In this document: piece by piece, positions 492 to 21,081 of the stretch
Numbering within the stretch: the first letter of the stretch is position 1
How the letters are laid out: each line of letters begins with the position of its first letter
Source of the DNA: a virus
Direction: 5' to 3' (one strand)
Virus record (IMG/VR): IMGVR_UViG_3300044987_001747
Span: 1-23,420 of that record
Length of the DNA stretch: 23,420 nt
Program-made: the position numbers and the translations under genes
Notes under the pieces: generated by a model
Seen by the model: the letters and a program-made list of their open reading frames with translations, nothing else
Database searches by the model: none
Told to the model about the DNA's origin: nothing

Positions 492-878
492 ATGAAGTAT
501 ATTATAACCGAGTCTCAGTATAAAATTTTGTTGGAGGATGATGACCGTCTGAACAGGATGGTGGAGAAGTATTTGAATACTGTGTTTGACAACTTAACTC
601 AGGTTGATACAAAATTTGGTTCAGCGTATAAGTTTAATGATGACGAGGGGTATGCAATATTGGTATCTAAAACAAGTGACGGAAAACAATTGGCAATTGC
701 ATCTCCACTTATTAATAAAGTTACATCAATATTAAATACATTACTTGATTTGGATAGAGTAGGTGTCGTTAAAACCATTAGTAAGTATTGTAGAGAAGTA
801 TTGGGAATCAATTATGACTATATTCGAACTTGGCCAATTAAAATACCAGGACCTGATGAAGACGAGGATAATTTTTAA
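492..878 (+). CDS. Tag-B ('MKYIITES') protein, small acidic hypothetical
   Basis: This 128-residue protein begins MKYIITESQYKILLEDD. The start at 492 was chosen over an upstream TTG frame because it places the conserved MKYIITES segment at the N-terminus, as in the genes at 962, 8328, 8707 and 12892. The tag ends in L-L-E, matching the [I/L]-x-E pattern of T4-type prohead protease sites. The remainder is soluble with an acidic C-terminus (PDEDEDNF). The layout (tag, short alpha/beta-looking domain, C-terminal helix with aromatic residues) resembles the 8328 and 8707 products, so these may be paralogues. The biochemical function is unknown. A TATTTAT element precedes it and a terminator follows. 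Confidence 0.8.
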   Translation: MKYIITESQYKILLEDDDRLNRMVEKYLNTVFDNLTQVDTKFGSAYKFNDDEGYAILVSKTSDGKQLAIASPLINKVTSILNTLLDLDRVGVVKTISKYCREVLGINYDYIRTWPIKIPGPDEDEDNF

Positions 879-913
879 TGAAATTAACGTATTTATAATA
901 AACTAAATTAATC

Positions 914-940
914 CCCCTCCAACAAAGAGGGGTTTTTTGT
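914..940 (+). terminator. Rho-independent terminator
   Basis: CCCCTC (914-919) pairs with GAGGGG (927-932) and a T run follows. It belongs to a set of terminators sharing the 5' flank AAATTAATCCCC, also at about 6041, 7378 and 9884. Confidence 0.85.
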
Positions 941-948
941 TTCTTATA

Positions 949-955
949 TATTTAT
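949..955 (+). promoter_or_regulatory. TATTTAT element, 6 nt before ATG
   Basis: TATTTAT directly follows the terminator T run and ends 6 nt before the lysozyme ATG. If it acts as a -10 element, the mRNA would be nearly leaderless. Confidence 0.45.
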
Positions 956-961
956 TGTTGT

Positions 962-1837
962 ATGAAAATCATTATCACAGAAAACCAATTTAAATCTTTA
1001 TTAACGGAATCAATTGCTGATGATTCGGAATTAAGAGATATTATAAAAAATTATGAATCCACTGTTGTTGATTCAAAAGGTAACCATTATGTATTTGATG
1101 ATAAGGATTCAAAAAACCCAAAAACTTTTATTTCAAATAATAAACTAAAAAAGGGTGGAACATTAACAATTGGGTGGGGACATACAGGTAAAGAAGCGAC
1201 AATAGGAAATAAGATATTAAATTCAAAGGCCGAAGAGTTATTAACAAAAGATATTATAGAAAAAGAAAATATTGCAAAAAAAGTATTATTTCCAAAATAT
1301 GATAAGTACCCATTATATATACAAAGGGTATTAGTTAATACCGTGTTTAGGGGGGAGGCAAAAACATCTCATGAATGGGTAAGGGCAATAAATTCAGGTA
1401 ATTGGAGTTTAGCTGCTAAAAAATATGTGGAAGGATGGAACATTAATTTTTCTCAAGCAAAAGACCCCAAATATAAAGGTGGGGTTGCCAATAGAATGGT
1501 AAACAATCAAGAAGCATTTATTAAGTATGGTAATGAATTAAAAACAAAAAAACCTGTTGTTAAAAATTCCAAACCTGAAACCGAAAAACAAAGGTGTTTG
1601 AAAATGTTACCAAAGGAGTTGGTCTATAGACCTGAATGTGATAAGTACTTTAAAAGTAATTACAATATGGATTATGGTTATGATTTTCCTGAAATGTTTT
1701 ATACCGTAAAATCAGGTGATACTCTTTCGGGAATTGCATCAAAATACGGTAAATCTGTTACTGTGGATAAGTTAAGAAAGTTAAATAATTTAACGTCAGA
1801 TAATATCAAACCTGGACAAAGATTAAAAATAAAATAA
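962..1837 (+). CDS. Tag-B GH24-like lysozyme with C-terminal LysM domain
   Basis: This 291-residue protein has three parts. Residues 1-16 are a class-B tag (MKIIITENQFKSLLTE) ending in L-T-E before Ser. Residues about 20-185 resemble a GH24 (T4-type) lysozyme: a candidate catalytic Glu32 in NYES, the TIGWGHTG motif at 69-76 and a GVANRMVNNQEAF segment like the family's C-terminal helix. Residues 247-290 are a LysM peptidoglycan-binding domain (YTVKSGDTLSGIASKYG). Such an enzyme would cut the glycan strand of murein. There is no Sec signal; the tag occupies the position where one would be. The tag suggests that the enzyme is sorted into, or attached to, the virion rather than acting only as a free endolysin, but that is inference. 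Assignment of the domains is strong; the exact catalytic residues are not. Confidence 0.88.
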   Translation: MKIIITENQFKSLLTESIADDSELRDIIKNYESTVVDSKGNHYVFDDKDSKNPKTFISNNKLKKGGTLTIGWGHTGKEATIGNKILNSKAEELLTKDIIEKENIAKKVLFPKYDKYPLYIQRVLVNTVFRGEAKTSHEWVRAINSGNWSLAAKKYVEGWNINFSQAKDPKYKGGVANRMVNNQEAFIKYGNELKTKKPVVKNSKPETEKQRCLKMLPKELVYRPECDKYFKSNYNMDYGYDFPEMFYTVKSGDTLSGIASKYGKSVTVDKLRKLNNLTSDNIKPGQRLKIK

Positions 1838-1873
1838 TAATTAATTCTTCTTTTTAAATTGTGTCCGGAAACG

Positions 1874-1896
1874 AAACCCGACTTCGTCGGTTTTTC
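1874..1896 (+). terminator. Tandem terminator, first hairpin
   Basis: CCGAC-TTC-GTCGG (1878-1890) is flanked by AAA and TTTTT. It is the first of two consecutive hairpins after the lysozyme gene. Confidence 0.75.
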
Positions 1897-1905
1897 TGAG
1901 CGACC

Positions 1906-1925
1906 GAACCCTTCGGGTCTTTTTC
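1906..1925 (+). terminator. Tandem terminator, second hairpin
   Basis: ACCC-TTC-GGGT (1908-1918) is followed by a T run at 1920-1924. The stem is short but it doubles the preceding terminator. Confidence 0.6.
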
Positions 1926-1999
1926 ATTCACTAAGTTGTCCATTATAGTTGGTCTCTCAGAAAATGTCGGATATCTAAAAAAAAATTTTTGGAAAAATT

Positions 2000-2030
2000 T
2001 TGAACTATTGTATTATTATTATTACCTTTG
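2000..2030 (+). promoter_or_regulatory. Bacteroidota-type promoter, leaderless arrangement
   Basis: TTG at 2000-2002, a 20-nt spacer and TACCTTTG at 2023-2030 match the Bacteroidota housekeeping consensus TTG-N19-23-TAnnTTTG. The ATG at 2035 follows TTTG after only 4 nt, so the transcript would start at or next to the start codon. Confidence 0.75.
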
Positions 2031-2034
2031 TGGT

Positions 2035-2547
2035 ATGATAATCGACAATTTTTTAAAAAACCTTACTATTGAAGAACTGATTGAGGTACAATCTAAATCT
2101 TCGGGTATAATCCATGATTATAAAGATGGATATTTTTATATCTGTGAGGTACGTTCTTATGGACGTAATTGGAAGAATTCGGATATCTATAATACCCATA
2201 CTCTTCAGGAGTTATGTTACCAATATGGTGGTGACGACGGTATTGTTGATGTATATTCTAATAATCCCGACTTGTCTGGTATTGATAACTATGGGGTTCT
2301 TAAATTTATTCCATCCGTTGAGGACCATAAGAAATGGAAGGAATATATGTATCTTAAGAATTCTATTCCCCGACATGAGGTAGAACTTAAAGTGTGGGAA
2401 GAACGTGAAAATGTTCCATTCAGACAAAGACCGAGTTTCGCTCCGTTCTATAGTCGTGAGGATATTGATGAAATGAAATTAAAGTTGGAAAACTTTGATA
2501 TGAATTTTGTTGAACCAAAATCTTATATTAATAATGCTGAAGAATAA
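2035..2547 (+). CDS. Hypothetical protein
   Basis: The start at 2035 gives 170 residues and is fixed by the host-like promoter ending at 2030. The frame is open back to 1936, but that segment overlaps the promoter and encodes a low-complexity FELLYYYYY stretch. The protein is soluble and rich in Tyr, Asp and Glu. It has a helical N-terminus (NFLKNLTIEELIEVQSK) and a charged C-terminal half. I do not recognise a family. Codon choice (many CTT, GAC and CGT codons) and the host-type promoter differ from the tagged genes and hint at early expression or host ancestry. Confidence 0.75.
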   Translation: MIIDNFLKNLTIEELIEVQSKSSGIIHDYKDGYFYICEVRSYGRNWKNSDIYNTHTLQELCYQYGGDDGIVDVYSNNPDLSGIDNYGVLKFIPSVEDHKKWKEYMYLKNSIPRHEVELKVWEERENVPFRQRPSFAPFYSREDIDEMKLKLENFDMNFVEPKSYINNAEE

Positions 2548-2585
2548 GATGAAACAAATAATATAAACAAATAAAAAAAAAACAA

Positions 2586-3008
2586 ATGAGTAAAGAATTA
2601 GTAAAGGTTGGTGATAAGGTAATTGCTGACGATACATTCATAAATTTGAGTGGATTCATTGATGGTGAAGTAATTGAGGTTACACCATATAAAAATGTAA
2701 TTACAATGCCTAACGAACCCAAGTATGAAGATAATAGGTTAGGGGTGAAAATATTAGGTAAATTCAAGAGGAGAGATTTTTTAACCGACGTGGAATATGA
2801 AGAGACTCGTAGAATTTCTTCTTGTGATTTTATGGTAAATCCTACATACGATGTTAATACTACTTGGGGAAAGTTTCACGGATATGCTGAAGCATTATTT
2901 TTCACATCGCAGGAAATTAAAGATGATTTTAATGAATCACTTAGAATTAAAAATATGAATTACCATTTGAATTCTGCCAAATCATACGGATATAAAGAAA
3001 ATTCATAA
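2586..3008 (+). CDS. Hypothetical protein
   Basis: This 140-residue protein is preceded by a pure A run (2573-2581), typical of translation starts in phages of Bacteroidota. The N-terminal half (VKVGDKVIADDTFINLSG) reads like a small beta-barrel with a KOW/SH3-like look, which is only a guess. The stop overlaps the next start by one base (TAATG at 3006-3010), so the two genes are translationally coupled. No recognised motif. Confidence 0.75.
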   Translation: MSKELVKVGDKVIADDTFINLSGFIDGEVIEVTPYKNVITMPNEPKYEDNRLGVKILGKFKRRDFLTDVEYEETRRISSCDFMVNPTYDVNTTWGKFHGYAEALFFTSQEIKDDFNESLRIKNMNYHLNSAKSYGYKENS

Positions 3009-3208
3009 TGAATAAAGAAATGGATGAATTCCTTGATAAGTTATATGCATTATGTTGGGAATATCACATTGAAATTAAACCTACACACCCAATACCTAAT
3101 AATGAATATCCAACTATATCCATCATAAATGGTGATGAAGTTGTAAAATTATTATATGTTGATGGAGATGGAGAAAATTACTATAATGAAACCTTTAAAT
3201 CAGAATAA
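3008..3208 (+). CDS. Small protein related by its C-terminus to the TAVEW family
   Basis: This 66-residue protein starts in a one-base overlap with the previous stop. Its C-terminus YYNETFKSE matches the ending of the TAVEW family (YYKETFKNTEQ in the product at 3831), although its N-terminus lacks the TAVEW motif. It may be a recombinant or diverged member at the head of the tandem array. Only one base separates it from the next gene at 3210. Function unknown. Confidence 0.7.
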   Translation: MNKEMDEFLDKLYALCWEYHIEIKPTHPIPNNEYPTISIINGDEVVKLLYVDGDGENYYNETFKSE

Positions 3209-3209
3209 T

Positions 3210-3470
3210 ATGAAACAGACAGCAGTAGAATGGTTTGTAGAGCAATTAAATATTAATGGAACAGTTATTCCAATGGCAATAGAATACAAAGCCAAAGAAA
3301 TGGAGAAGCAACAACAAGGTTATAGTGAGGAAGAAGTAATAGAAATAATTAAACTTTCTTGTGAAGAAGGAATGTTAATTCAAAGAACTATAAATGATAA
3401 AGTTAAAATTCCATATATGAGAATAAAAGACTTTACAATTAGAATGTTTGAACAATATAAAAAGAAATAA
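3210..3470 (+). CDS. TAVEW-family small protein, copy 1
   Basis: The start at 3210 gives 86 residues beginning MKQTAVEWFVEQL. An upstream ATG in the same frame lies inside the preceding gene and was rejected because the MKQTAVEW start is conserved in the copies at 3475 and 3831. The signature is TAVEW(L/F)VEQ, a variable segment, AKEMEKQQ, then a divergent tail, here with an acidic helix (YSEEEVIEIIKLSCEEGM). Proteins of this pattern recur in phages and mobile elements of Bacteroidota, to my knowledge without an assigned function. Confidence 0.8.
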   Translation: MKQTAVEWFVEQLNINGTVIPMAIEYKAKEMEKQQQGYSEEEVIEIIKLSCEEGMLIQRTINDKVKIPYMRIKDFTIRMFEQYKKK

Positions 3471-3474
3471 GATT

Positions 3475-3834
3475 ATGAAACAAACAGCAGTAGAATGGTA
3501 TAACTTGAAAGTAATTGAGTTAATGACACAAAGAGAACAAGAAAATATTGATGTACTTGAATTTAGAAATCAACTTGATTTATTATTAACACAAGCCAAA
3601 GAAATGGAGAAAAATAATACTGATAATAAACATTTACCTGACAATGAAGTTTTAGGAGAACCTAAACAAGAACAAAGAAAAATGATTATGAAAAAGTTAA
3701 AGCAAATTGGCAAAGAATTAATAGCACTTACAGCACTGATACTATGTTTAATACTAATACCCAATCCCATAATGTATCTAATAGGATGTTGGCAATTAGG
3801 TTCATGGTTCGGCTATTTAACAAAAAAATTATGA
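3475..3834 (+). CDS. TAVEW-family protein fused to a membrane segment, copy 2
   Basis: This 119-residue protein starts MKQTAVEWYNLKV and contains QAKEMEKN at about 44-51, so the first half is a TAVEW paralogue. The second half is different: a basic stretch (MKKLKQIGK) followed by a strongly hydrophobic region of about 35 residues (LIALTALILCLILIPNPIM and onward). This looks like a fusion of a paralogue with a one- or two-pass membrane peptide. An internal start at the MIMKKLK methionines could also make the membrane part alone. The stop overlaps the next gene as ATGA. Confidence 0.75.
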   Translation: MKQTAVEWYNLKVIELMTQREQENIDVLEFRNQLDLLLTQAKEMEKNNTDNKHLPDNEVLGEPKQEQRKMIMKKLKQIGKELIALTALILCLILIPNPIMYLIGCWQLGSWFGYLTKKL

Positions 3835-4040
3835 AACAAACAGCAGTAGAATGGTTGGTTGAACAGTACAAGAAAGTTGGTGGTATTTCTATTAGTATGG
3901 CAGAAATAGCCAAAGAAATGGAGAGAGAGCAGATAACATATTGTTATGATTTTGTTTCATCAAAAATATGCACACAATGCGATGATTTTAAGACAGGTGA
4001 ACAATACTATAAAGAAACATTTAAAAACACAGAACAATGA
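3831..4040 (+). CDS. TAVEW-family small protein, copy 3
   Basis: This 69-residue protein (MKQTAVEWLVEQYKK, then AEIAKEMEREQ, ending YYKETFKNTEQ) is a canonical full-length family member. It contains a C-x2-C pair (ICTQC). The start lies in an ATGA overlap with the preceding stop and its own stop overlaps the next start in the same way, indicating coupled translation. The frame is open further upstream (from 3744), but the conserved MKQTAVEW start is preferred. Confidence 0.82.
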   Translation: MKQTAVEWLVEQYKKVGGISISMAEIAKEMEREQITYCYDFVSSKICTQCDDFKTGEQYYKETFKNTEQ

Positions 4041-4237
4041 CAGCAGTAGAATGGTTAGTATATGTAGTTCAATCAAACATAGCTCCAAATTATATACCAA
4101 AAGAAATTGTTGAACAAGCCAAAGAAATGGAGAAGCAGCAGATAGAAAATGCTTATGAAAAAGGTAAAAAATATAAAAAACCTATAAAGGATAGTAATCC
4201 AATTTGGCTTAATTCAAAACCATATAAAAAGAAATAG
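4037..4237 (+). CDS. TAVEW-family small protein, copy 4
   Basis: This 66-residue protein starts MTAVEWLVYVVQ and carries EQAKEMEKQQIENAYEKG, the best conserved part of the family. It begins in an ATGA overlap with copy 3. The C-terminus (NSKPYKKK) stops at a TAG at 4235-4237. The next 24 codons in the -1 frame look like a continuation (see 4237-4311), so this copy may have lost its normal tail by frameshift. Confidence 0.78.
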   Translation: MTAVEWLVYVVQSNIAPNYIPKEIVEQAKEMEKQQIENAYEKGKKYKKPIKDSNPIWLNSKPYKKK

Positions 4238-4311
4238 AGAAGGAAACTTTAGAATTACTAAAAGATTTTGACACTTGGAAAGAATGGAAAAATAAATTGA
4301 TGAGTAATTAA
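4237..4311 (+). pseudogene. Out-of-frame coding remnant after TAVEW copy 4
   Basis: The -1 frame reads EKETLELLKDFDTWKEW and continues KNKLMSN to a TAA at 4309-4311. It has no start codon of its own except a late ATG (4300). The amphipathic, coding-like composition and position suggest the detached C-terminus of the preceding paralogue or of a lost one. The junction lacks a good slippery heptamer (T-AAA-AAG rather than A-AAA-AAG), so decay is more likely than programmed frameshifting. Confidence 0.4.
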
Positions 4312-4328
4312 TATTTCTTATTAAAGAT

Positions 4329-4481
4329 ATGTCTGAAGTAGACTTAATTGACGAGAATTTATGGGACCATTATAGTGGTCTTCCAAATCCTGCGTGGTAT
4401 CAATATAAAAAAAAATTAAACAATGAGGAGGAAGATACGGATAGTAGTATTGATTTGGGAGTTATTGATGAAGAGGTTTAA
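4329..4481 (+). CDS. Small acidic hypothetical protein
   Basis: This open frame encodes 50 residues beginning MSEVDLIDENLWDHYSGLPN and containing an acidic stretch (NNEEEDTDSS). The composition is coding-like, with Trp and Tyr residues spread through a structured N-terminal half. No family recognised. It follows the TAVEW array after a short gap and precedes the repeat element at 4528. Confidence 0.55.
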   Translation: MSEVDLIDENLWDHYSGLPNPAWYQYKKKLNNEEEDTDSSIDLGVIDEEV

Positions 4482-4527
4482 ACGTAAAAGAAAAAGTATA
4501 TGGGACTTATGATTATTTTTTATAATC

Positions 4528-4549
4528 TGTAAAATAAAATCCTTATAAT
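4528..4549 (+). repeat. Dispersed TGTAAARTAAAAYCCTTAT element, copy 2
   Basis: It differs from the copy at 412-433 at only two positions. It ends where the host-like promoter of the next gene begins. Confidence 0.5.
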
Positions 4550-4579
4550 TTGAAAAAATGAAAAATTCTATTATCTTTG
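4550..4579 (+). promoter_or_regulatory. Bacteroidota-type promoter, leaderless arrangement
   Basis: TTG at 4550-4552, a 19-nt spacer and TATCTTTG at 4572-4579. The ATG at 4584 follows after 4 nt, the same geometry as at 2030 and 5662. Confidence 0.75.
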
Positions 4580-4583
4580 TTGT

Positions 4584-4808: not shown

Positions 4809-4860
4809 TAATAGTGGGGGTTTTTATTTAACTATTTCATAACCTACGATAATTGAATAT

Positions 4861-4980: not shown

Positions 4981-4984
4981 TAAG

Positions 4985-5018: not shown

Positions 5019-5027
5019 TTTATGTCA

Positions 5028-5629: not shown

Positions 5630-5630
5630 T

Positions 5631-6089: not shown

Positions 6090-6096
6090 TATTTAT
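6090..6096 (+). promoter_or_regulatory. TATTTAT element, 17 nt before ATG
   Basis: The 24 nt from 6090 to the ATG differ from 10446-10469 at a single position, so the whole element including the leader is duplicated. Confidence 0.6.
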
Positions 6097-6113: not shown

Positions 6114-6407
6114 ATGGCAAGAATTACAAGATTAACTGAATCCGATTTGTCTCGTATCGTTAAAAGAGTTATTATCGAAATGGATGACGATGATGATTAT
6201 GATAGTGATTTTGAAAATAAGTCGCTTAAAGAGTTAATAAAAATTGCTGAAGATTTTCTGTTAAACGAACTTGGATTTTCACCAGACGCAATCGATGAAA
6301 TTGATGAATGGTATATTATTGATGTTTTAAGAGACCACCATTATGATGAATTAGCGTCAGAAATAGAAGAAAAACTTTATGATAGTATTGATTATAGTGA
6401 TTTTTAA
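6114..6407 (+). CDS. Tag-A protein with acidic cargo
   Basis: This 97-residue protein begins with the class-A tag (RLTESDLSRIVKRVIIE at residues 6-22), basic and amphipathic, ending in I-I-E. The remainder is strikingly acidic (MDDDDDYDSDFE, then DEIDEWYIIDVL). The charge reversal at the tag/cargo boundary fits a removable targeting peptide. The gene follows a terminator and TATTTAT cassette and lies 32 nt upstream of the next tagged gene, probably in one transcript. Cargo function unknown. Confidence 0.82.
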   Translation: MARITRLTESDLSRIVKRVIIEMDDDDDYDSDFENKSLKELIKIAEDFLLNELGFSPDAIDEIDEWYIIDVLRDHHYDELASEIEEKLYDSIDYSDF

Positions 6408-6439: not shown

Positions 6440-7357
6440 ATGAGAAGAATTACAAGATTAACAGAAAGAGATTTAACAAGATTGGTTAGACGAGTTATTA
6501 AAGAAAATAAAACAAAAAAGAAACCTGTCAATGAAGGGTTAAACGACTATTTAACACTTATCGGAGGAACTTTGGTTTCATTTGCGGCTATTAAACTTTT
6601 TGGTAGAAAAATATTAGTACAATTATTTGGGTTATTTTCTAAAGGTCTAATAAAGTCGACTTGTTATAAAGAGTTGGAATCAATAATGGAATTGATTTCA
6701 AAAGACACGGACAACCTTCAAGTTGAGTATAAAAAAATAAAAGACTATTATCAAATAATAATTGATATGAAGTCTTTTTCTTCAGAATATTCATTTACTG
6801 ATACAAAAGATTATAAGGCGGGTCAGTTAGATTCATATAATTTTCCCGCAAAATTAAAACTATATGACGACGGAACGGTAGAATATTTGTGTAATACTGG
6901 CGAAGTTATTCGTGAAAAATCAAAAGGTAATATTTATGATAATTTTGTTAATTTTATTAAATCTTATGGTGAAGAAAACCCTAAGATTAGAGGATATGCA
7001 GAAGATAAAGAAATTTTCAAGGTTTTAAATAAAACATTAAAACCTAACTTCCAATCAAAAGTGGAACAATATAATTCTTTGGCTTCTATGGATAGTAATG
7101 TTATTGATAAAATGGCATCTGAAATCTCAAAAAAATTGGATATTCCGCAAGAACTTATTGCGAACGCAATGGAAAGACACCAACCAACAGAAATGAAAGA
7201 TGAAGAAACAATATCTACCGATAGATATTATTCACCTATTTGGGAGTTTATTAATGATGTTTATAAAGATATTACAGAAAGTGATAATAATGAATCTCTG
7301 AAAGAATCAGATTTAACCCGTATTGTTAAACGGGTAATCCAGGAAAATAAAAAATGA
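6440..7357 (+). CDS. Tag-A membrane-associated protein with tag at both termini
   Basis: This 305-residue protein starts MRRITRLTERDLTRLVRRV followed by IKE (class-A tag), then a basic linker and a second site-like VNE-G at 30-33. Residues about 37-66 are hydrophobic (YLTLIGGTLVSFAAIKLFG), suggesting a membrane-active segment. The middle is a soluble domain with no family I recognise. The last 19 residues repeat the tag: LKESDLTRIVKRVIQENKK. No other protein here has the tag at the C-terminus. It shares a transcript with the 6114 gene. A repeated or fused cassette is a plausible origin. Confidence 0.82.
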   Translation: MRRITRLTERDLTRLVRRVIKENKTKKKPVNEGLNDYLTLIGGTLVSFAAIKLFGRKILVQLFGLFSKGLIKSTCYKELESIMELISKDTDNLQVEYKKIKDYYQIIIDMKSFSSEYSFTDTKDYKAGQLDSYNFPAKLKLYDDGTVEYLCNTGEVIREKSKGNIYDNFVNFIKSYGEENPKIRGYAEDKEIFKVLNKTLKPNFQSKVEQYNSLASMDSNVIDKMASEISKKLDIPQELIANAMERHQPTEMKDEETISTDRYYSPIWEFINDVYKDITESDNNESLKESDLTRIVKRVIQENKK

Positions 7358-8327: not shown

Positions 8328-8687
8328 ATGAAATATACCATCAACGAATCTAAATTTAAAAAAGTAGTCATTGATTATCTTAATGAACTATTTCCTGAAG
8401 ATGAACTTCATTGGACTCACCCATTGGATGATTTTTACAATGAGGATGATAATGCATTACGAGCATATCTTGGTGATTCTGAGGATGAAAATGATTGTTT
8501 TTGGTGGTATGGACCTGAATGGTTTAATGATGATGATGAAAACCTTACAAAAGATAGGGCACCCATTGTTGAGATTGAAAACAAATACTTACTGTCATTA
8601 AATGGATATTTTGGTGATAAATGGCACGAAATATTTAAGGAGTGGTTTACTGAAAGGTTTGGCGTATCTGTGAAAACCATTGAATAA
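8328..8687 (+). CDS. Tag-B protein, acidic small domain
   Basis: The start at 8328 gives 119 residues beginning MKYTINESKFKKVVIDYLNE. An in-frame ATG at 8310 was rejected because it lies in the previous gene and hides the conserved tag. The tag ends in L-N-E. The body is very acidic (DDFYNEDDNALRAYLGDSED) and rich in Trp (WWYGPEWF), ending in a helix and FGVSVKTIE. This plan resembles the products at 492 and 8707. Function unknown. Confidence 0.78.
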   Translation: MKYTINESKFKKVVIDYLNELFPEDELHWTHPLDDFYNEDDNALRAYLGDSEDENDCFWWYGPEWFNDDDENLTKDRAPIVEIENKYLLSLNGYFGDKWHEIFKEWFTERFGVSVKTIE

Positions 8688-8706: not shown

Positions 8707-9048
8707 ATGAATTATATTATTACTGAAAGTAAACTTGATAACATTATTGATAATTTCATTACAACTCAATTTGGTAAATTACATCATCAATTAGACGGTG
8801 ATAAATTTACGTTAGTTAATGATAATGGTGACACCATATTTATTGTTATTCTTACTGATTATGGTCAAGGGTATTATGCTTATGTGTTAGACGAAGCTTA
8901 TGCTAGTACAATCAACATGTTCTCTATGGTAGGATTTAAAGATATTCAGTCCGCGTTATCTAGATGGCTTTATAAACATTACAACTTACCTGTGAAAGAA
9001 TCAAGAATCACCACATTTTCCAGAGGTGAAGAAGAATATGCGTACTAA
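8707..9048 (+). CDS. Tag-B protein, small domain
   Basis: This 113-residue protein begins MNYIITESKLDNIIDNF. The IITES core is present but there is no [I/L]-x-E within the first 25 residues, so cleavage as in the other tags is not obvious. The body alternates predicted strands (DKFTLVNDNGDTIFIVILTD) and a helix with RWLYKHYNLPVKES, like the C-termini of 492 and 8328. It directly follows 8328 and probably duplicated from it or from a common ancestor. Function unknown. Confidence 0.75.
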   Translation: MNYIITESKLDNIIDNFITTQFGKLHHQLDGDKFTLVNDNGDTIFIVILTDYGQGYYAYVLDEAYASTINMFSMVGFKDIQSALSRWLYKHYNLPVKESRITTFSRGEEEYAY

Positions 9049-9395: not shown

Positions 9396-9402
9396 TTTTT
9401 AT
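9396..9402 (+). promoter_or_regulatory. TTTTTAT variant element, 17 nt before ATG
   Basis: It deviates by one base from TATTTAT but keeps the 17-nt spacing and an A-rich leader ending AAAATACT like that at 10470. Confidence 0.4.
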
Positions 9403-9419: not shown

Positions 9420-9866
9420 ATGAGAAAAATTGTAAGATTAACGGAATCAGATTTAACAAGAATTGTTAGAAGAGTTCTAAGTGAAGAAAAAAATAATATA
9501 AATGAGGGAGCTGTCATTAATGGTATTACCATTAATTCATCAGCAGATGGTATGTTAAATGCAAAAAGTGTAAAAAACTTGTTAAATAATTATAAAGTAA
9601 GTGTTAACTGTGGCAAGAATGTTTTTGGAAAATTTATGTCAGCATATAAAGGACCTGTGGTGATATCAAAATTATGGAACAATAAAAAAGATAATGGTAT
9701 TGCGGGAGTGGATAATACAGGGAAAATATTTACTATCCCGTTAGACCAATCTAAAAGATTAGCGGGAGAAATGAAATCAGGAAATACAAAAATAGTTGCA
9801 CAAGGTGAGGGAGAAATTTCAGGAATTAGCGGTGTATGTTATGTAACATTAAATAAAAGAAGTTAA
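9420..9866 (+). CDS. Tag-A protein with small beta-rich cargo
   Basis: This 148-residue protein starts with the class-A tag (RLTESDLTRIVRRVLSE at 6-22), followed by a short linker and a second site-like INE-G at 27-30. From residue 30 on, a Gly/Val/Asn-rich, probably beta-structured domain follows (GAVINGITINSSADGM, GKNVFGKFMSAYKGPVV). Removal at either site would release a cargo of about 119-126 residues. No family recognised. It is followed by a strong terminator. Confidence 0.82.
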   Translation: MRKIVRLTESDLTRIVRRVLSEEKNNINEGAVINGITINSSADGMLNAKSVKNLLNNYKVSVNCGKNVFGKFMSAYKGPVVISKLWNNKKDNGIAGVDNTGKIFTIPLDQSKRLAGEMKSGNTKIVAQGEGEISGISGVCYVTLNKRS

Positions 9867-10445: not shown

Positions 10446-10452
10446 TATTTAT
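10446..10452 (+). promoter_or_regulatory. TATTTAT element, 17 nt before ATG
   Basis: Part of a 24-nt block nearly identical to 6090-6113; both precede tag-A genes. Confidence 0.6.
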
Positions 10453-10469: not shown

Positions 10470-10676
10470 ATGAGAAGAACTGTAAGATTAACTGAAAGAG
10501 ATTTAACACGATTGGTTAGACGAGTAATTAAAGAAGACCAAGAAAGATTCACACTTAATGATGTTCAAGATGGAACGTGTGGAACTAGTGGAACATGGGA
10601 AGTTAGAAACGGTTCATTAATATTAACCGATTGTAATATGAATGGTACTACGATTGACGCACAAATAACAATATAA
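10470..10676 (+). CDS. Tag-A protein with very small cargo
   Basis: This 68-residue protein has a class-A tag (RLTERDLTRLVRRVIKE at 6-22) followed by only 46 residues: DQERFTLNDVQDGTCGTSGT, a strand-rich stretch with two Cys (CGTSGTW and LTDCNMNG), then a polar end. The tag is one third of the protein, which argues that it is a functional module rather than part of the cargo fold. It has its own terminator-TATTTAT cassette and is followed after 5 nt by another tagged gene. Confidence 0.82.
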   Translation: MRRTVRLTERDLTRLVRRVIKEDQERFTLNDVQDGTCGTSGTWEVRNGSLILTDCNMNGTTIDAQITI

Positions 10677-10681: not shown

Positions 10682-11239
10682 ATGGCAAGAATTATAAGAT
10701 TAACAGAAAGAGATTTGGTAAGAATTGCCAAAACAATAATAACTGAAAAAGAAAAAGAAAAAGGACTTATTCGAGGTTCTTTTGACAATTTTAAAAAAGC
10801 CGTTAACGCATCAAAAAATTTCTTTAAAAATGAGGTTTTTAGTGATTTAACTGACGCAGAATTATCAAAGATACTCAAAAAATCTAAAGAGGTGAATCTT
10901 GAAAAGATAATAAATAAATTAGACGACGAAGAATCAAAATTAGTGGACGAAGGTTATATAAATGAAGGTATTATTAGTAGAGTTAAAGATTTTATCTCAA
11001 ATCTTGGAATTTATGCTGGAGGATTGGCAAGTGCGACAGGATTAATCAGTATTGCCGGTGAAGTATCAGGTTGGAGTCAGAGTGAATTTTTCACTAAAAT
11101 ACATGAGATAAACGAACAATACATGGGTTTGGGTCGTGGTAATGCTGGTATGGCGTTATTAGTAATGGTTCTTGGTATTATATTGGCTTGTTTTTCTTAT
11201 TCAAAAAGAGAAACAAATAGAGAAAGAAGTAAATCGTAA
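10682..11239 (+). CDS. Tag-A membrane protein
   Basis: This 185-residue protein carries a diverged class-A tag (RLTERDLVRIAKTIITE at 6-22, ending I-T-E), then a helical charged region and a second INE-G at 93-96. Downstream are two hydrophobic segments (about 107-127 and 154-173) and a basic C-terminus (SKRETNRERSKS). If cleaved at INE-G, the released product would be a small two-helix membrane protein. Such a product could be ejected with DNA into the host membrane; this is inference. It is followed by a bidirectional terminator. Confidence 0.82.
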   Translation: MARIIRLTERDLVRIAKTIITEKEKEKGLIRGSFDNFKKAVNASKNFFKNEVFSDLTDAELSKILKKSKEVNLEKIINKLDDEESKLVDEGYINEGIISRVKDFISNLGIYAGGLASATGLISIAGEVSGWSQSEFFTKIHEINEQYMGLGRGNAGMALLVMVLGIILACFSYSKRETNRERSKS

Positions 11240-12183: not shown

Positions 12184-12190
12184 TATTTAT
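12184..12190 (+). promoter_or_regulatory. TATTTAT element, 14 nt before ATG
   Basis: The stretch TATTTATTAATAAATTA is identical to those before the tag-A genes at 6114 and 10470, showing that the block also precedes an untagged gene. Confidence 0.55.
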
Positions 12191-12878: not shown

Positions 12879-12885
12879 TATTTAT
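12879..12885 (+). promoter_or_regulatory. TATTTAT element, 6 nt before ATG
   Basis: Same short spacing as at the lysozyme gene (962). Both drive tag-B genes. Confidence 0.5.
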
Positions 12886-12891: not shown

Positions 12892-13926
12892 ATGAAATAC
12901 GTTATTACTGAATCACAATATAAAACATTAATTGGAGAAGATGAAAATGTCGAACCATCCAAAACCGCGGCAAAAAACATTTGTGATAGCGAAAAATTTT
13001 GTAAATCTCAAGGTAAAATTACTTTTGGTCAGTTAAAAGCCTTAGTTCAAGAATCATCTAAAAATAGAATATATAAACATGTTGGTGAGGGTGGATTTAA
13101 AGCAACAATTAGATTAATTCCATTTTTTCTACCACAATTAATGATTCCTGGCATTATTGCGGGTGTTGCAAGGGCAATTAATAAAATATTAAAACCAAGT
13201 TTAACTGAAACTGAAAGTTATAAAACGTTTTGGGGTAAGGCAATTCTAAATTCATTTAAAATTGTTGAAGGTGAAATTAATTTTGATGACCCATTTTCAA
13301 AAATATTTTTTATATCTGATGGTCTAATGACCATGTTGGATGATAAATATAAAATTAAATTTGCCAGACATATTGCCAATTTGGCAGATAGTATGCCAAA
13401 CAATCAGGAAGTTCCTGAATACTTTGTTGAAAATGAGTTAAGAAAATGGGTTAATGATAAATTTATATTGGACCCACCAATTCCACCAAAAACATCTGAT
13501 AATAAATTATCACCAATAGATGTTGATGACACTGAGAAAACTATAACTGAACAAAAGTTAAGCAAAAAAGAATTATTTCAGGAAATTATTGATGATAATG
13601 TAGAATACATCAAAAAACAGTGTAATGAATATAATGCTGATAACTACGCAAGTCATATTAGTTTTAGTACTTGTGATGAGGTGGACATAATTGATAGTAT
13701 AAGTGTTGATGAGGTGGTTATGATTTCAGGAGCAAGAACTGACATGGAAGGAAATATGTATGATACAACACCTGGAATTTATCTTAAATTAACGATAAAT
13801 TTACATTCGGCAACTAAAATGTCTGTTTTTGATGAGTTAATTTACGACTTAAAACATATAATAAGAAAATCAACAGGATTATTGGTCGTATTTGATTACA
13901 GAATCAATAATACATTTACGGATTAA
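12892..13926 (+). CDS. Large tag-B protein
   Basis: This 344-residue protein begins MKYVITESQYKTLIGE (tag B ending I-G-E). An upstream in-frame start at 12856 was rejected as it lies in the terminator and leader. Residues about 17-60 are polar with two Cys. Residues about 72-95 are hydrophobic (RLIPFFLPQLMIPGIIAGV). Next come KIFFISDGLMTMLDDKYKIK and EYFVENELRKWVNDKF, segments I associate with a conserved but unnamed protein of such phages. A further site-like TITE-Q occurs near residue 233. Its function is unknown; the hydrophobic segment suggests membrane contact after delivery. Confidence 0.8.
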   Translation: MKYVITESQYKTLIGEDENVEPSKTAAKNICDSEKFCKSQGKITFGQLKALVQESSKNRIYKHVGEGGFKATIRLIPFFLPQLMIPGIIAGVARAINKILKPSLTETESYKTFWGKAILNSFKIVEGEINFDDPFSKIFFISDGLMTMLDDKYKIKFARHIANLADSMPNNQEVPEYFVENELRKWVNDKFILDPPIPPKTSDNKLSPIDVDDTEKTITEQKLSKKELFQEIIDDNVEYIKKQCNEYNADNYASHISFSTCDEVDIIDSISVDEVVMISGARTDMEGNMYDTTPGIYLKLTINLHSATKMSVFDELIYDLKHIIRKSTGLLVVFDYRINNTFTD

Positions 13927-15044: not shown

Positions 15045-15051
15045 TATTTAT
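15045..15051 (+). promoter_or_regulatory. TATTTAT element, 13 nt before ATG
   Basis: TATTTATAATAAAACAAATT precedes the ATG at 15065, similar to the block at 9135. Confidence 0.5.
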
Positions 15052-15064: not shown

Positions 15065-15253
15065 ATGAAACACCTATTAAATAATTTATCAGACGAGGAA
15101 AAAAATAATATCCGAAACCAACATACCGGAGGAATGAAAGTTATGACTGAGAGTTTTTCAAGGTTATTAAACTCTAAACTTGGAGATTCAAAACCTTTGG
15201 TTACTGAAGATGAAGATGAAGATGAAGGCCAATCACAACCATTTCTTAAATAA
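15065..15253 (+). CDS. Small tag-D protein (MKHLLNNLSDEEK)
   Basis: This 62-residue protein begins MKHLLNNLSDEEKNNIRNQH, then GGMKVMTESFSRLL and an acidic C-terminus after LVTE (DEDEDEGQ). The LSDEEKxxIxxQH pattern is a second kind of N-terminus that I associate with small phage proteins of this group. It ends in a [I/L/V]-T-E-like site followed by acid residues. The internal TES sequence recalls tag B. Almost the whole protein is tag-like, so it may be a minimal member or a cargo remnant. Confidence 0.72.
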   Translation: MKHLLNNLSDEEKNNIRNQHTGGMKVMTESFSRLLNSKLGDSKPLVTEDEDEDEGQSQPFLK

Positions 15254-16106: not shown

Positions 16107-16110
16107 AAAA

Positions 16111-16613: not shown

Positions 16614-16684
16614 GATTAATATTCAACATCATTAACTATTGATACAATAATATATTTTACTTATTTTTTTAAAAAATAAAATAT

Positions 16685-17116
16685 ATGAGTAAAGTAAAAA
16701 TTTCTACAAGCAAAGGTGATATGATTGCTGAGTTGTATGACAACGAAACGCCAATCACCACAGAAAACTTCAAAAGTTTAATTAGTAAAAAATTCTATGA
16801 CGGACTAAACTTCCACAGAGTTATTCCAAACTTTGTAATCCAAGGTGGATGTCCTAATGGAGTTGGTAATGGTGGTCCAGGATACAACATTACATGTGAA
16901 GTAACCGCACCAAAACAATTCCACGAAAAAGGTGTGTTGTCAATGGCTCACGCTGGACGTAACACAGGTGGTTCTCAGTTCTTCATATGTCATAACAGAC
17001 AAGGAACACAACACCTTGATGGAAACCATACCTGTTTTGGTAAAGTCATGGAAGGACTTGAAATAATTGACCAAATACAACAAGGAGATAAGATTAACTC
17101 AATTGAAATTATTTAA
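16685..17116 (+). CDS. Cyclophilin-type peptidyl-prolyl cis-trans isomerase
   Basis: This 143-residue single-domain cyclophilin would catalyse cis-trans isomerisation of Xaa-Pro bonds. The motif FHRVIPNFVIQGG (43-55) contains the catalytic Arg45. GSQFFI (96-101) and LDGNHTCFGKV (111-121) complete the active site, with His115 in place of the Trp of human cyclophilin A, as in many bacterial enzymes. There is no signal peptide, so it acts in the cytoplasm. It is close to the minimal length for the family. Codons are more C-rich than those of neighbours (AAC, TTC, CAC), pointing to acquisition from a bacterial host. It probably assists folding of phage or host proteins. Confidence 0.95.
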   Translation: MSKVKISTSKGDMIAELYDNETPITTENFKSLISKKFYDGLNFHRVIPNFVIQGGCPNGVGNGGPGYNITCEVTAPKQFHEKGVLSMAHAGRNTGGSQFFICHNRQGTQHLDGNHTCFGKVMEGLEIIDQIQQGDKINSIEII

Positions 17117-17147
17117 CAATTAAAACTTTTTACTAAACTTACCATAA

Positions 17148-17345
17148 ATGTCATTAATAATTTATGCGATAAGATGGATTGGGTCAAATATGGCAATGCC
17201 ATTTTGGATTGTTGGTCACATTCACCTAACAATGAATGTTTATGAGGACATCTATGAAATACTTACATCATTAGGAATGAATATTATTGTTGCTCTCGCA
17301 TTTTGGATGGATTGGAATGACCAAAAAAAAAATAAAATCTCTTGA
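17148..17345 (+). CDS. Small membrane protein
   Basis: This 65-residue protein has two hydrophobic segments (about 2-24 with IYAIRWIGSNMAMPFWIVG, and 38-54), separated by a polar turn, and a basic C-terminus (DQKKNKIS). Several His, Trp and Met residues lie in or near the membrane parts. No recognised family. Confidence 0.65.
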   Translation: MSLIIYAIRWIGSNMAMPFWIVGHIHLTMNVYEDIYEILTSLGMNIIVALAFWMDWNDQKKNKIS

Positions 17346-17382
17346 TATACTTAAAATAAGAGTTATAATTAAAAGAAAAACA

Positions 17383-17580
17383 ATGGGAGCACAACATTTA
17401 ACACAAGAAGAAAAAGCTAGACTTTATGATGATATGGTTTTAAGATACCAAAGACTTGAAGAACAAGTTAGATTAATTAAAGCTAAAAATTTTGAAATTA
17501 CAGATGAAGACCAACGACAAATTAATATAATTGAGTCAAATATGAGAAAATTATATACCGATACACAAAAGTTGTTTTAA
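17383..17580 (+). CDS. Small coiled-coil protein
   Basis: The start at 17383 gives 65 residues (MGAQHLTQEEKARLYDDMVL and onward). The frame is open from 17287 but overlaps the preceding gene. An A-rich leader (AAAAGAAAAACA) supports the choice. The sequence is a long amphipathic helix with heptad-like hydrophobic spacing (RLEEQVRLIKAKNFEI, RQINIIESNMRKLYTD). It is likely a small helical oligomer; function unknown. Confidence 0.72.
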   Translation: MGAQHLTQEEKARLYDDMVLRYQRLEEQVRLIKAKNFEITDEDQRQINIIESNMRKLYTDTQKLF

Positions 17581-17621
17581 TCAAATTTAAGACTATTTAC
17601 ATATAATAAACAAAATCAATA

Positions 17622-17628
17622 TATTTAT
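17622..17628 (+). promoter_or_regulatory. TATTTAT element, 4 nt before ATG
   Basis: TATTTAT ends 4 nt before the tag-A start at 17633, while an ATAATAAACAAAATCAAT block like that at 9140 lies further upstream. Confidence 0.5.
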
Positions 17629-17632
17629 TTGT

Positions 17633-18118
17633 ATGAGAAGAGTTCAAAGATTGACAGAAAGAGATTTAACAAGATTAGTTAGACGAGTTTTAAGAGAAGA
17701 AGATGACCGAAAATTCTGCCACGGTGGAAATGTAAAATCTCTTGAGGAGATTGTTGGTCATGATGAACCACAAGATTATATTGAAGGTGTAAAGATTAGA
17801 CCAACTGGAGTTAACGGCTTAGTTGATAAATTAGAGTTATTAAAAACTCTTAGGTTACACCCAAAAGTCTCTGATGGTGGTGAACATTTGGCAAGTGAGG
17901 TAATGAACCATTTAAAAAGTTTTAAACCTTACAATTATTTTGATGAAACAAAAAAAGAGTGTGGTGGGGCAATGGACAAGATTATTGAACTTTACAAAGA
18001 AAACGAACACGGGGAAGAACTTGTTAAAGACATTGAATCGGTTTATAGAATGCAACATGTGTCCCCAAGAGCAAAAGAATTCTTAAAACATGGAATGGGA
18101 ATGATTAAAGGTCAATAA
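17633..18118 (+). CDS. Tag-A protein
   Basis: This 161-residue protein starts with the class-A tag (RLTERDLTRLVRRVLRE at 6-22), followed by an acidic junction (EDDRKFCHGG). The cargo is largely helical and contains three or four His and two Cys (FCHGGN, KKECGG). No known fold is recognised. A strong terminator directly after the gene ends the transcript. It lies far (about 6.4 kb) from the other tag-A genes, showing that the tag is dispersed rather than clustered. Confidence 0.82.
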   Translation: MRRVQRLTERDLTRLVRRVLREEDDRKFCHGGNVKSLEEIVGHDEPQDYIEGVKIRPTGVNGLVDKLELLKTLRLHPKVSDGGEHLASEVMNHLKSFKPYNYFDETKKECGGAMDKIIELYKENEHGEELVKDIESVYRMQHVSPRAKEFLKHGMGMIKGQ

Positions 18119-18149
18119 TTTGATTCTTACATAAAATATATCTATAATT

Positions 18150-18179
18150 AATGTCTCACAATTGTGGGACATTTTTTTT
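18150..18179 (+). terminator. Strong hairpin terminator abutting a start codon
   Basis: AATGTCTCA, loop CAATTG, TGGGACATT (18150-18173) is followed by six T that end exactly at the ATG at 18180. Confidence 0.82.
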
Positions 18180-18560
18180 ATGTGGGATAATAAACCTGAT
18201 AATATTGCTGACACACCTGGATTACTTCCATACGGTAGTAATGCCAGTGCTCCATCTATTAAACCTGTTGATTTAACGACATTCAAGAAAAATGGTCTTG
18301 ATAAGGTTAATAAAGTTTTTGACCGAAGATACAAAGAAATCGTGGAACAAGCAGAAACCCTTCAAAAATCGTTTTTAATCACTCAAACGGTATACGAGTC
18401 CAAATATAAATTTGAACCGATTATAGGTGAAATATATCATTTATATGAGGATTTAGATGGTAAGTATTCATTATCAATCATTAGTCCATCAGAATGGAAC
18501 AAAAAACATGTTTATTCTGTGGTGTTAAATTCGGATATGACATGGACAAAAATAGATTAA
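18180..18560 (+). CDS. DUF2452-like protein
   Basis: The start at 18180 gives 126 residues (MWDNKPDNIADTPGLLPYGS). The frame is open from a TTG at 18162, which lies within the hairpin and was rejected. The sequence NKPDN...LPYGSNxSAPxIKPVD, followed by KFEPIIGEIYHLYE and a C-terminal SPSEWN, matches the DUF2452 family as I remember it, at full length. The family occurs in Bacteroidota and Proteobacteria and has no known function to me. The start codon directly follows a terminator T run, an arrangement that may couple termination and expression. Confidence 0.78.
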   Translation: MWDNKPDNIADTPGLLPYGSNASAPSIKPVDLTTFKKNGLDKVNKVFDRRYKEIVEQAETLQKSFLITQTVYESKYKFEPIIGEIYHLYEDLDGKYSLSIISPSEWNKKHVYSVVLNSDMTWTKID

Positions 18561-18597
18561 AAAAATTGGATACATTGTTCTTTTTCTTTGTTAACCA

Positions 18598-18604
18598 TAT
18601 TTAT
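18598..18604 (+). promoter_or_regulatory. TATTTAT element, 19 nt before ATG
   Basis: TATTTAT precedes the GAF-like gene at 18624. Confidence 0.4.
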
Positions 18605-18623
18605 TTAAAAGTTAAAGGTATTA

Positions 18624-19241
18624 ATGAATCAACATTTTATGGAAATATTTGGAAGTGTGTTAGTGGCGTTGATAACGGCGTTATTTGGACCAGTAGCAAT
18701 ACTGTGGGTTAAAAAAAAATTAACAAAACCTAAAGATGAGTTAGAAATTGAACTTTATTCTACGGAAAAAATAACAACAGAAATAGAAGAAGTTTTAAAA
18801 AAATTAGATGCCGATAGAGTTTGGATAACACAATTTCACAACGGAGGACATTTTTTACATTCAAATAAGTCAATGCAAAAATTTTCAGTTGTATATGAAG
18901 TAGACGCCGCAGGAGTCTTACCCGTGTCAACAATTTTTACAAATATTCCAATATCCTTATACTCAAGATGTTTTTCCGAAATGTTAACAACAAAATTTAT
19001 TGCAATTCCTAATTATGAGGATGAAACAGTTGCAACTTATGGTTTAAAGGCAGGTGCTGAGGCAACAGGTGCAAAGTCAAGTTATATTGTTGGGTTATTT
19101 GACTTTGGAACATCAAAACTTATGGGGTCAGTTGGTGTTGATTTTTTAGAACCTAAACAACTTACCGATAGTGAAATAGAATATTTTAAAACACGTTCAG
19201 AAAGAGTTGCAGGATACTTGTCATCAAATAGACAAAATTAA
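18624..19241 (+). CDS. Membrane-anchored GAF-like domain protein
   Basis: This 205-residue protein has an N-terminal hydrophobic helix (about 7-29, FGSVLVALITALFGPVAILW) followed by basic residues (KKKLTK), so the rest lies in the cytoplasm. Residues about 45-200 resemble a GAF fold: a helix (EIEEVLKKLDADRVWITQFH), FSVVYEV, and a final strand/helix (LMGSVGVDFLEPK, then RSERVAGYL). GAF domains bind small ligands or mediate dimerisation; no effector domain is attached. Assignment rests on the overall pattern. The stop overlaps the convergent minus-strand gene by 4 nt. Confidence 0.6.
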   Translation: MNQHFMEIFGSVLVALITALFGPVAILWVKKKLTKPKDELEIELYSTEKITTEIEEVLKKLDADRVWITQFHNGGHFLHSNKSMQKFSVVYEVDAAGVLPVSTIFTNIPISLYSRCFSEMLTTKFIAIPNYEDETVATYGLKAGAEATGAKSSYIVGLFDFGTSKLMGSVGVDFLEPKQLTDSEIEYFKTRSERVAGYLSSNRQN

Positions 19242-19522
19242 ACATCCCACCTTATAATTGTTTTAATAGTTTTTTCAGGAAAAAAATAAACAAGAGCATC
19301 TTGAATTAAGATTTCCGTTAATGAAGTGTCCAAAATTTCTTCATTTATAACGTCACCCAAAATAACAACAAGTTCAACCAACACACTATTATCTGAAACT
19401 CCAAAATTTACGGTATGAACTTTAATTATTGACCTATTACCATAAATTGACTCCACCAAGTCACCCTTAAATCCATTAAGGTACACTTCGATTAAACGAA
19501 AAAGTCTTCTTTTATTATCCAT
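19238..19522 (-). CDS. Hypothetical protein, minus strand
   Basis: This 94-residue protein (MDNKRRLFRLIEVYLNGFKG and onward) is probably alpha/beta, with strand-like VLVELVVILGDVI. It ends tail-to-tail with the GAF-like gene, overlapping it by 4 nt. No recognised family. Upstream lies the structured, gene-free region 19523-19749, without a convincing promoter of either class in the immediate leader. Confidence 0.65.
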   Translation of the reverse strand: MDNKRRLFRLIEVYLNGFKGDLVESIYGNRSIIKVHTVNFGVSDNSVLVELVVILGDVINEEILDTSLTEILIQDALVYFFPEKTIKTIIRWDV

Positions 19523-19581
19523 TATTATAATAATATAATAAAAATTATCAAAAAATGTATGTTAATTAAACTTGACATAAA

Positions 19582-19656
19582 AAAGAGGGGTAGCGAATCC
19601 CTCTTTAATTTGTTACCGAAACAGTAACGGTCCTAAAATCCCCAAATTAATTGGGG
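19582..19656 (+). ncRNA. Three consecutive hairpins with 23S-rRNA-like segments (possible structured RNA)
   Basis: Between divergent genes, three hairpins follow one another: AAAGAGGG/CCCTCTTT (19582-19606) with loop GTAGCGAAT; GTTAC/GTAAC (19612-19628); CCCCAA/TTGGGG (19640-19656). Segment 19589-19597 (GGTAGCGAA) and segment 19625-19636 (TAACGGTCCTAA) equal, from memory, adjoining pieces of the universally conserved helix 69-71 region of 23S rRNA, but in reversed order. Terminator-like elements are unexpected between divergent genes, so a small RNA is possible. The strand is uncertain. Confidence 0.35.
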
Positions 19657-19665
19657 GGGCTTGTT

Positions 19666-19688
19666 TTATTATAAATATTTTATAATAA
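19666..19688. repeat. Perfect 10-bp inverted repeat
   Basis: TTATTATAAA, centre TAT, TTTATAATAA. A symmetric AT-rich palindrome beside the hairpin cluster, perhaps a protein-binding site or part of the divergent promoters. Confidence 0.45.
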
Positions 19689-19728
19689 TTAAAAATTAAG
19701 AGATTATCTCTCCTTTTTTATTTTCATA

Positions 19729-19735
19729 TATTTAT
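19729..19735 (+). promoter_or_regulatory. TATTTAT element, 14 nt before ATG
   Basis: TATTTAT precedes the ATG at 19750 with the same intermediate spacing as at 12205. Confidence 0.45.
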
Positions 19736-19749
19736 CTAATAAATGATAT

Positions 19750-20019
19750 ATGGAAAAGAAATGGTTTTTTGGATGGTCAAATATTAAATGGTTAATAAAA
19801 GAACTAATAAAGTTATACAGCGTTGAAATATCTTATTTCTCTAAAAAACGAGTTGAATCAGGTGTCGCATTTTTAGTTGGTCAATTTGGTATGATTTATT
19901 TTTTAATGGTTAATATAAATAAATTAGATAGTACAGATATTGCAATTTGGGCTAGTATTGAATTTGCAATATCTGGATACATTGTAAGTCAAATACAAAA
20001 AGAAAAAAAAAATACATAA
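19750..20019 (+). CDS. Two-helix membrane protein, holin-like
   Basis: This 89-residue protein begins with an aromatic basic amphipathic region (KKWFFGWSNIKWLIKELIKL), followed by two hydrophobic helices (about 36-54 and 62-80) and a basic C-terminus (QIQKEKKNT). Size and topology suit a phage holin, but holins have no universal motif and no endolysin is directly adjacent. It lies 27 nt before the tagged nuclease gene and may share its transcript. Confidence 0.6.
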   Translation: MEKKWFFGWSNIKWLIKELIKLYSVEISYFSKKRVESGVAFLVGQFGMIYFLMVNINKLDSTDIAIWASIEFAISGYIVSQIQKEKKNT

Positions 20020-20035
20020 TACAATATTATAATTG

Positions 20036-20042
20036 TATTTAG
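20036..20042 (+). promoter_or_regulatory. TATTTAG variant element, 4 nt before ATG
   Basis: It differs by one base from TATTTAT and has the 4-nt spacing; weak support. Confidence 0.25.
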
Positions 20043-20046
20043 AGAT

Positions 20047-21081
20047 ATGAGAGATTTAATTAAAAAAATTTTAAATGAATCAAAGAAAACATTAGTAGGG
20101 TGTGATTTTTTTGAGACAAATACCAATGATTACAGATGGTGTAAATTTGCCGAAAATAAATTAATGAAAAATACTCGAAAAGTTAAAAAAGCTTTAGACG
20201 ATTATACGAAAGAATACCTTTCAACCTACGAGACTGGTGTAAGGGCAGTTAAATATGATAAAGGCATACAGTTTTTTTCAGAAAGAAGAGACATGGTGAT
20301 TGACGCACTTGAAAAGTTTAAATTATCTTGCCCAAAATTAAGAAGTTATATCATAGAGGCTATGACCAAATTTACTGAAAAGTTTGTTATTTGGGATGAG
20401 AAACAACAATATGATTTATTAAACAAATTAAACACTAATTATAGTGCTGCGGCTTATATGATAACGGTAGAATTACCTGAAAAATATAAAACCTCAGTCT
20501 CTTTTGAAGACTCTTTAAAATATTTTTTTGATTATAAAAATAATGATGGTATTACTCCATTTGAAAATTTTATGGGTAAAATAGAGACAACAAACAAACA
20601 AGAAATTAGAGATAAAATTAATCAAACAATATCTCAAAAAACAAAAGAAGGTCAAGAAATTGAAGATAAGTTTTATGAGTATATTACAGAACAATTAGGT
20701 GGGTCTAATGTTATCACATATTCTGGAGATTATTCATTTATGGATATGATTGGAATTGATATGGTTGTCAAAAATCCTGAAAATAAATGGATTCCCGTAC
20801 AAATTAAAAAATACGTGGGAGCATGTGAAGATTCTAAGGGTTATCGAAAACATATGTGTGAAAATTGGTGTGTTTCTAATGAATCAAAATTTTGGAATAT
20901 TCGAGTTTATAATGGTGAAACTTTGGTTAAATTAAAAAAACAATGTAAAACTACAGAATTAGATGAAATTACATTTTTAAATGTTCACGGAACTCCAAAT
21001 AAAGAGTCACAGTCAGGATTTTGTCGTTCCGATTATGAGGCTGAGGATGAATATTATAAAAGTTTAGATAATCCAAAATAA
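20047..21081 (+). CDS. Tag-C protein with PD-(D/E)XK-like nuclease domain
   Basis: This 344-residue protein begins MRDLIKKILNESKK, a short basic amphipathic helix ending L-N-E, the same logic as tags A and B. Residues about 20-190 are helical and charged. Residues about 200-260 look like a restriction-endonuclease-like fold: Glu206 in EGQEIEDKFYEYI, Asp238 in DMIGIDMVV, and Gln252/Lys254 in WIPVQIKKY (the D...(E/Q)xK pattern). A Cys/His-rich stretch follows (GACED...HMCENWC), perhaps metal-binding. The likely activity is DNA or RNA cleavage. A packaged nuclease entering with the genome could attack host DNA or resident plasmids. Domain assignment is by motif only. Confidence 0.7.
   Translation: MRDLIKKILNESKKTLVGCDFFETNTNDYRWCKFAENKLMKNTRKVKKALDDYTKEYLSTYETGVRAVKYDKGIQFFSERRDMVIDALEKFKLSCPKLRSYIIEAMTKFTEKFVIWDEKQQYDLLNKLNTNYSAAAYMITVELPEKYKTSVSFEDSLKYFFDYKNNDGITPFENFMGKIETTNKQEIRDKINQTISQKTKEGQEIEDKFYEYITEQLGGSNVITYSGDYSFMDMIGIDMVVKNPENKWIPVQIKKYVGACEDSKGYRKHMCENWCVSNESKFWNIRVYNGETLVKLKKQCKTTELDEITFLNVHGTPNKESQSGFCRSDYEAEDEYYKSLDNPK

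Follow-up and report, generated by a model that had tools for sequence, protein, structure and literature searches.

Thirteen proteins encoded on a fragment of a large phage carry short sorting tags that most probably act as capsid-targeting propeptides of T4-type head assembly, expanded and made modular in Bacteroidetes jumbo phages. The fragment, hereafter the window, comprises positions 1 to 23,420 of IMG/VR virus record IMGVR_UViG_3300044987_001747 (23.4 kb, G+C 28%). Tag families, their position, a site signature at the tag end, natural swaps between cargos, an encoded prohead protease with a matching gp23 site, and a shared upstream element were all read directly from the sequence. The principle of capsid targeting is known from phage T4 (PMC9026906, PMC3012670); what is new is how many tags there are and how freely their several types are exchanged, and searches of open-access articles found no report of these tags, which does not prove absence. 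The initial annotation had proposed a T4-like sorting-tag interpretation for this window, and the sequence evidence supports it.

Tags were sought with profile HMMs grown from sequences of the window and its relatives. The thirteen genes listed in the initial annotation all proved to be open reading frames at the coordinates given there; 12 match a profile (i-E 3e-5 or better), and the remaining one, at 15065, was recognized through its orthologues. All tags located in the window lie on the plus strand. Class I, with the consensus RLTExDLxRxVxRVIxE, opens six genes: MARITRLTESDLSRIVKRVIIE (6114–6179, HMM E 2e-12; TATTTAT at 6090) precedes a 97-aa acidic protein, MRRITRLTERDLTRLVRRVIKE (6440–6505, E 3e-11) a 305-aa protein, MRKIVRLTESDLTRIVRRVLSE (9420–9485, E 4e-13; TATAAATA at 9400) a 148-aa cargo, MRRTVRLTERDLTRLVRRVIKE (10470–10535, E 7e-12; TATTTAT at 10446) a 68-aa cargo, MARIIRLTERDLVRIAKTIITE (10682–10747, E 5e-11) a 185-aa cargo with a hydrophobic stretch near its C-terminus, and MRRVQRLTERDLTRLVRRVLRE (17633–17698, E 2e-11; TATTTAT at 17622) a member of a widespread phage family that carries other tags elsewhere. 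A second, C-terminal class I copy on the 6440 protein, ESDLTRIVKRVIQE (7304–7345, residues 289–302, E 5e-7), adds to the original list. Class II (MKYIITESQ...) opens five genes: MKYIITESQYKILLED (492–539, E 2e-7; TATTTAT at 468) on a 128-aa cargo, MKIIITENQFKSLLTE (962–1009, E 6e-6; TATTTAT at 949) on a phage lysozyme with LysM (PF00959, 2e-7; PF01476, 1e-17), MKYTINESKFKKVVIDYLNE (8328–8387, E 3e-5) on a 119-aa cargo, MNYIITESKLDNII (8707–8748, E 3e-6) on a 113-aa protein and MKYVITESQYKTLIGE (12892–12939, E 4e-6; TATTTAT at 12879) on a 344-aa protein. The short class V tag, MRDLIKKILNES (20047–20082, E 8e-6), opens gene 20047, and a probable class III tag without an HMM match, MKHLLNNLSDEEKNNIRNQHTGGMKVMTES (15065–15154; TATTTAT at 15045), is kept in the related contigs G001 and G016. 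The cargos differ as described originally: one is the lysozyme–LysM protein and the others fall into no Pfam family. A nuclease-like nature of the 20047 product could not be established, with no Pfam match above threshold and an AlphaFold model at pLDDT 40. Elsewhere in the window, four tandem small genes of a paralogous family (3156–4237) begin with or contain (MKQ)TAVEW...AKEMEKQQ, and 16685–17116 encodes a cyclophilin-type prolyl isomerase (PF00160, E 5e-42).

The tags of 6114, 6440 and 10470 resemble one another at the DNA level, as do some of the bases upstream of them, which would fit recent duplication of a leader cassette whose peptide has no function, but we give this explanation almost no credence. 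Class I pairs in the window share 43–61 of 69 nt, and the synonymous differences noted originally amount to 2–5 codons per pair; together with the nonsynonymous ones they are many. Also speaking against duplication are the conservation of the tag across hundreds of contigs and in front of 51 cargo families, C-terminal copies, the exchange for unrelated tags that are built alike, and the class I column statistics given below, which contradict it.

Of two near-complete genomes, the one of 326 kb encodes 34 tagged proteins and the one of 318 kb encodes 32, with tags of five classes; within-class counts, here and below, are not independent tests, since each class HMM was built from the very tags counted. 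Across eight contigs, 107 of 114 profile matches are N-terminal and most of the others C-terminal, while reversed decoys of all 1408 proteins gave 1 match in total. The class I tag occurs at at least 509 confirmed stretches in IMG/VR and only 9 times in 84,980 prokaryote genomes. Among the best 80 class I loci, it is N-terminal in all 80 and precedes 51 unrelated cargo families. Known cargo domains include lysozyme plus LysM, M23 peptidase plus lysozyme, OmpA-like, GYF and DUF5872.

The end of the class I tag bears a distinct signature. In 77 class I tags, column 20 is I, L or M, column 21 is free (H 3.0 bits) and column 22 is E in all 77, after which conservation falls to background within two residues. 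An invariant glutamate, a free position before it and the loss of conservation right after it together form a protease-site pattern, and T4 gp21 sites show the same one (PMC9026906). All 26 class I tags tested contain [ILVMF]xE (24 in the strict (L/I)-x-E form; shuffle mean 10.3), as do 8 of 8 in class V (shuffle 3.9) and 29 of 45 in class II (shuffle 15.6); classes III and IV exceed the shuffle mean by small margins. In the class V tag of 20047, L9 and E11 are invariant in an alignment of 8 homologues and position 10 varies. The initial annotation had given the site as [I/L]xE. A hydrophobic-x-E end holds, and the strict form is too narrow: among 44 distinct tags on the 17633 cargo, 28 end in the strict motif and all 44 in [ILVMF]xE (shuffle mean 25.9, maximum 37). 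Two further candidates were rejected, namely linker sites after the tag (VNE, INE), which are not enriched over shuffles, and the internal class I L-T-E as a second site with a free P2, in which T is fixed.

A distal [ILVMF]xE within residues 10–24 is absent from 17 of 45 class II tags. The 8707 product is one of these: as originally noted it has no obvious cleavage site, its sole hydrophobic-x-E being I-T-E within the tag itself. Such members would suit peptides that bind scaffold or shell and stay on the cargo uncleaved, in the manner of encapsulin cargo peptides, as would the class I core L-T-E-x-D-L, which is conserved beyond what a cut site alone would need. We nevertheless regard permanent docking as quite unlikely, because the invariant E, the free position before it and the conservation lost right after it follow a protease-site pattern and a fitting protease is encoded.

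That protease is absent from the window, which is a fragment; no head genes were found within these 23.4 kb. Using the 20047 product as query disclosed ten related contigs. One of them, the 71-kb contig G001, runs collinear with the window over about 18 kb, the two being 95–99% identical; gain or loss between the two concerns 5 genes, a small number, of which 3 have a tag HMM match and 1 is class III-like. The gp21-like protease that the initial annotation had suggested seeking in the remaining genome was found in these relatives: S77 (PF03420, gp21-type prohead protease) scores above cut-off in G001, in G005 and in all 9 of 9 related genomes of at least 270 kb. Its catalytic His/Ser region is kept, with LNHPE and G[VI]SSRG aligned to LNHPP and GVSSRG of T4 gp21. 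Both G001 and G005 encode Gp23 (PF07068, 4e-63) as well as Peptidase_S77, and G001 further encodes Portal_T4 (gp20), a terminase and, adjoining gp23, an acidic candidate scaffold-like protein. A capsid cleavage site of like form, also sought on the earlier suggestion, is present: aligned to T4, gp23 has LINE|ASST at the position of FLTE|AEIG, before the shell domain.

Related genomes reach 326 kb, a size that might bring nucleus-forming jumbo phages (Chimalliviridae) to mind, with the tags directing import into the phage nucleus. This is extremely unlikely: the head genes are T4-type, and nothing homologous to the nuclear shell protein of phiKZ was found, a phmmer search with phiKZ gp54 against eight contigs, including the two near-complete genomes, giving a best E of 0.011 (a 99-aa protein), although a distant homologue could escape such a search.

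Tags move between cargos. With the cargo sequence as query and the tag excluded, one cargo, that of 17633, was found behind at least three unrelated tags, its orthologues following MRRVQRLTERDLTRLVRRVLREE, MGKRFxITExEKxxIKKLYxIEQ or MKKIRIKESDIRKVIRRYILEN. The 12892 cargo follows MKYVITESQYKTLIGED or MKDLIKQILEDE, and at nine loci it lies downstream of an internal KKKNESIDKLIKLVLEDE in the same reading frame as a DUF5872-like protein. At L161–L168 and L171 (position about 3000), the DUF5872-like protein and the 12892 cargo form a single ORF via the internal tag KLIKLVLEDE. This fusion is possibly a polyprotein split by the prohead protease. In G001 (851–1561, in L022), a DUF5872-like protein near gp23 bears a C-terminal class I tag, KKIIRLTENDLIRIIKKIITEQ, and the G016 DUF5872-like protein has a short C-terminal tag. 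The propeptide reading fits these natural swaps and C-terminal and internal copies, as well as the I-x-E column signature.

The same observations bear on whether the tags are amphipathic helices that target the membrane or envelope and act in the infected cell rather than in the capsid. The helices of class I are amphipathic (muH 0.8–1.1) with a positive charge, and some cargos are hydrophobic or peptidoglycan hydrolases. The same cargo, however, sits elsewhere behind acidic, weakly amphipathic tags (muH 0.25), tags occur also at C-termini and within fusions, and the hydrophobic-x-E constraint is left unexplained, so that we consider membrane targeting very unlikely.

Tagged genes also share an upstream element. 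Among genes with a free 40-bp upstream gap, to which the comparison was restricted, TATTTAT lies within 45 nt upstream of 25 of 29 tagged genes vs 114 of 325 others (P 8e-8). It is orientation-biased, preceding 15 of 44 genes in G000 vs 1 for the reverse complement; a further example in the window is at 12184. Several of the tagged genes without the element sit directly behind another gene. TATTTAT is a probable phage promoter element, and it also precedes gp20, gp21 and gp22; its presence before both tagged and head genes suggests late expression together with the head genes.

Taken as propeptides, the tags may be placed in a scheme modeled on T4, in which the N-terminal residues of the capsid-targeting sequence (CTS) target and its last residues are processed (PMC9026906). 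Each short tag would dock its protein on the prohead core before shell closure, the S77 gp21-type protease would cut after hydrophobic-x-E at the tag end, and the cargo would be freed inside the capsid and later ejected with the DNA. By this analogy we infer core docking, cleavage, packaging and ejection. Tags behave as exchangeable modules that move between cargos and may also stand C-terminally or at the junction of a fusion; in T4, Alt is known to be processed at its C-terminus (PMC9026906). A more speculative extension, which we hold to be rather doubtful, treats the tag classes as an address code: different tags would meet different prohead-core partners or layers and yield an ordered payload of >30 proteins. 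Some of these would arise from polyproteins cut at their internal tags, others would be anchored by both termini, and tag exchange would alter the payload between phages.

Which phage proteins travel in the head and enter the cell early is known mainly for a few model phages. If the propeptide reading is true, sequence alone reveals what is loaded into the capsids of uncultured Bacteroidetes jumbo phages, a large and widespread group, each class I tag site (at least 509 in IMG/VR alone) names a candidate injected protein, and the tags offer natural, portable means of capsid loading. Two further products were observed at the end of the window on the minus strand: a HEVSH-motif, metallopeptidase-like protein (22262–22681) and a YGxxTKWCT-domain protein (22713–23420). 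The latter domain recurs at two places in G001 (22476, 24879) and also in G016 (235352), where it follows a class I tag.

The host of this large phage is probably a member of the Bacteroidetes. Among phage records, nothing related to the window was found at the DNA level, and tblastn with the tag or with 20047 likewise found no relatives. By gp23, the nearest cultured Bacteroidetes phages are Flavobacterium phages (immuto, 42%), with a Microcystis phage and one metagenomic phage scoring on par. Like the phages here, immuto (NC_055915) encodes S77 and repeats short N-termini of its own, e.g., MKKSQLRQIIKEAL; it differs in its size of 160 kb and in giving a single weak tag-profile match, off the very N-terminus. 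G001 carries a bS21-like gene (7034–7222, in L022; PF01165, E 1.5e-5, slightly below cut-off) between portal and protease on the opposite strand, and this placement ties the lineage to the freshwater Bacteroidetes bS21 phages of Chen et al. 2022 (PMC9723584). Size, G+C, synteny and bS21-like gene placement are similar and the lineage is probably the same; the passages of that article consulted hold no mention of sorting tags.

Among characterized systems, phiKZ and SPN3US (gp175, gp245) are likewise giant phages in which many head proteins are trimmed after x-E and a bolus is ejected (PMC10052503). SPN3US cuts after AxE, with 8 N-terminal propeptides reported, mostly long (PMC10052503), whereas the tags here are short; and unlike in phiKZ and SPN3US, the major capsid protein and protease here match T4 families. 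The closest parallel is the T4 CTS (IPI, IPII, IPIII and Alt, with gp21): the tags here would likewise be short propeptides on unrelated cargo with a P1 glutamate in a hydrophobic-x-E site, alongside an S77 protease and T4-type gp20/gp23, and the likeness seen between the tags and the CTS is one of form. In contrast to T4, the phages here have five tag classes, whose members are longer and range from 12 to about 30 aa, and >30 tagged proteins per genome, exchange tag types on one cargo, and place copies at C-termini and inside fusions.
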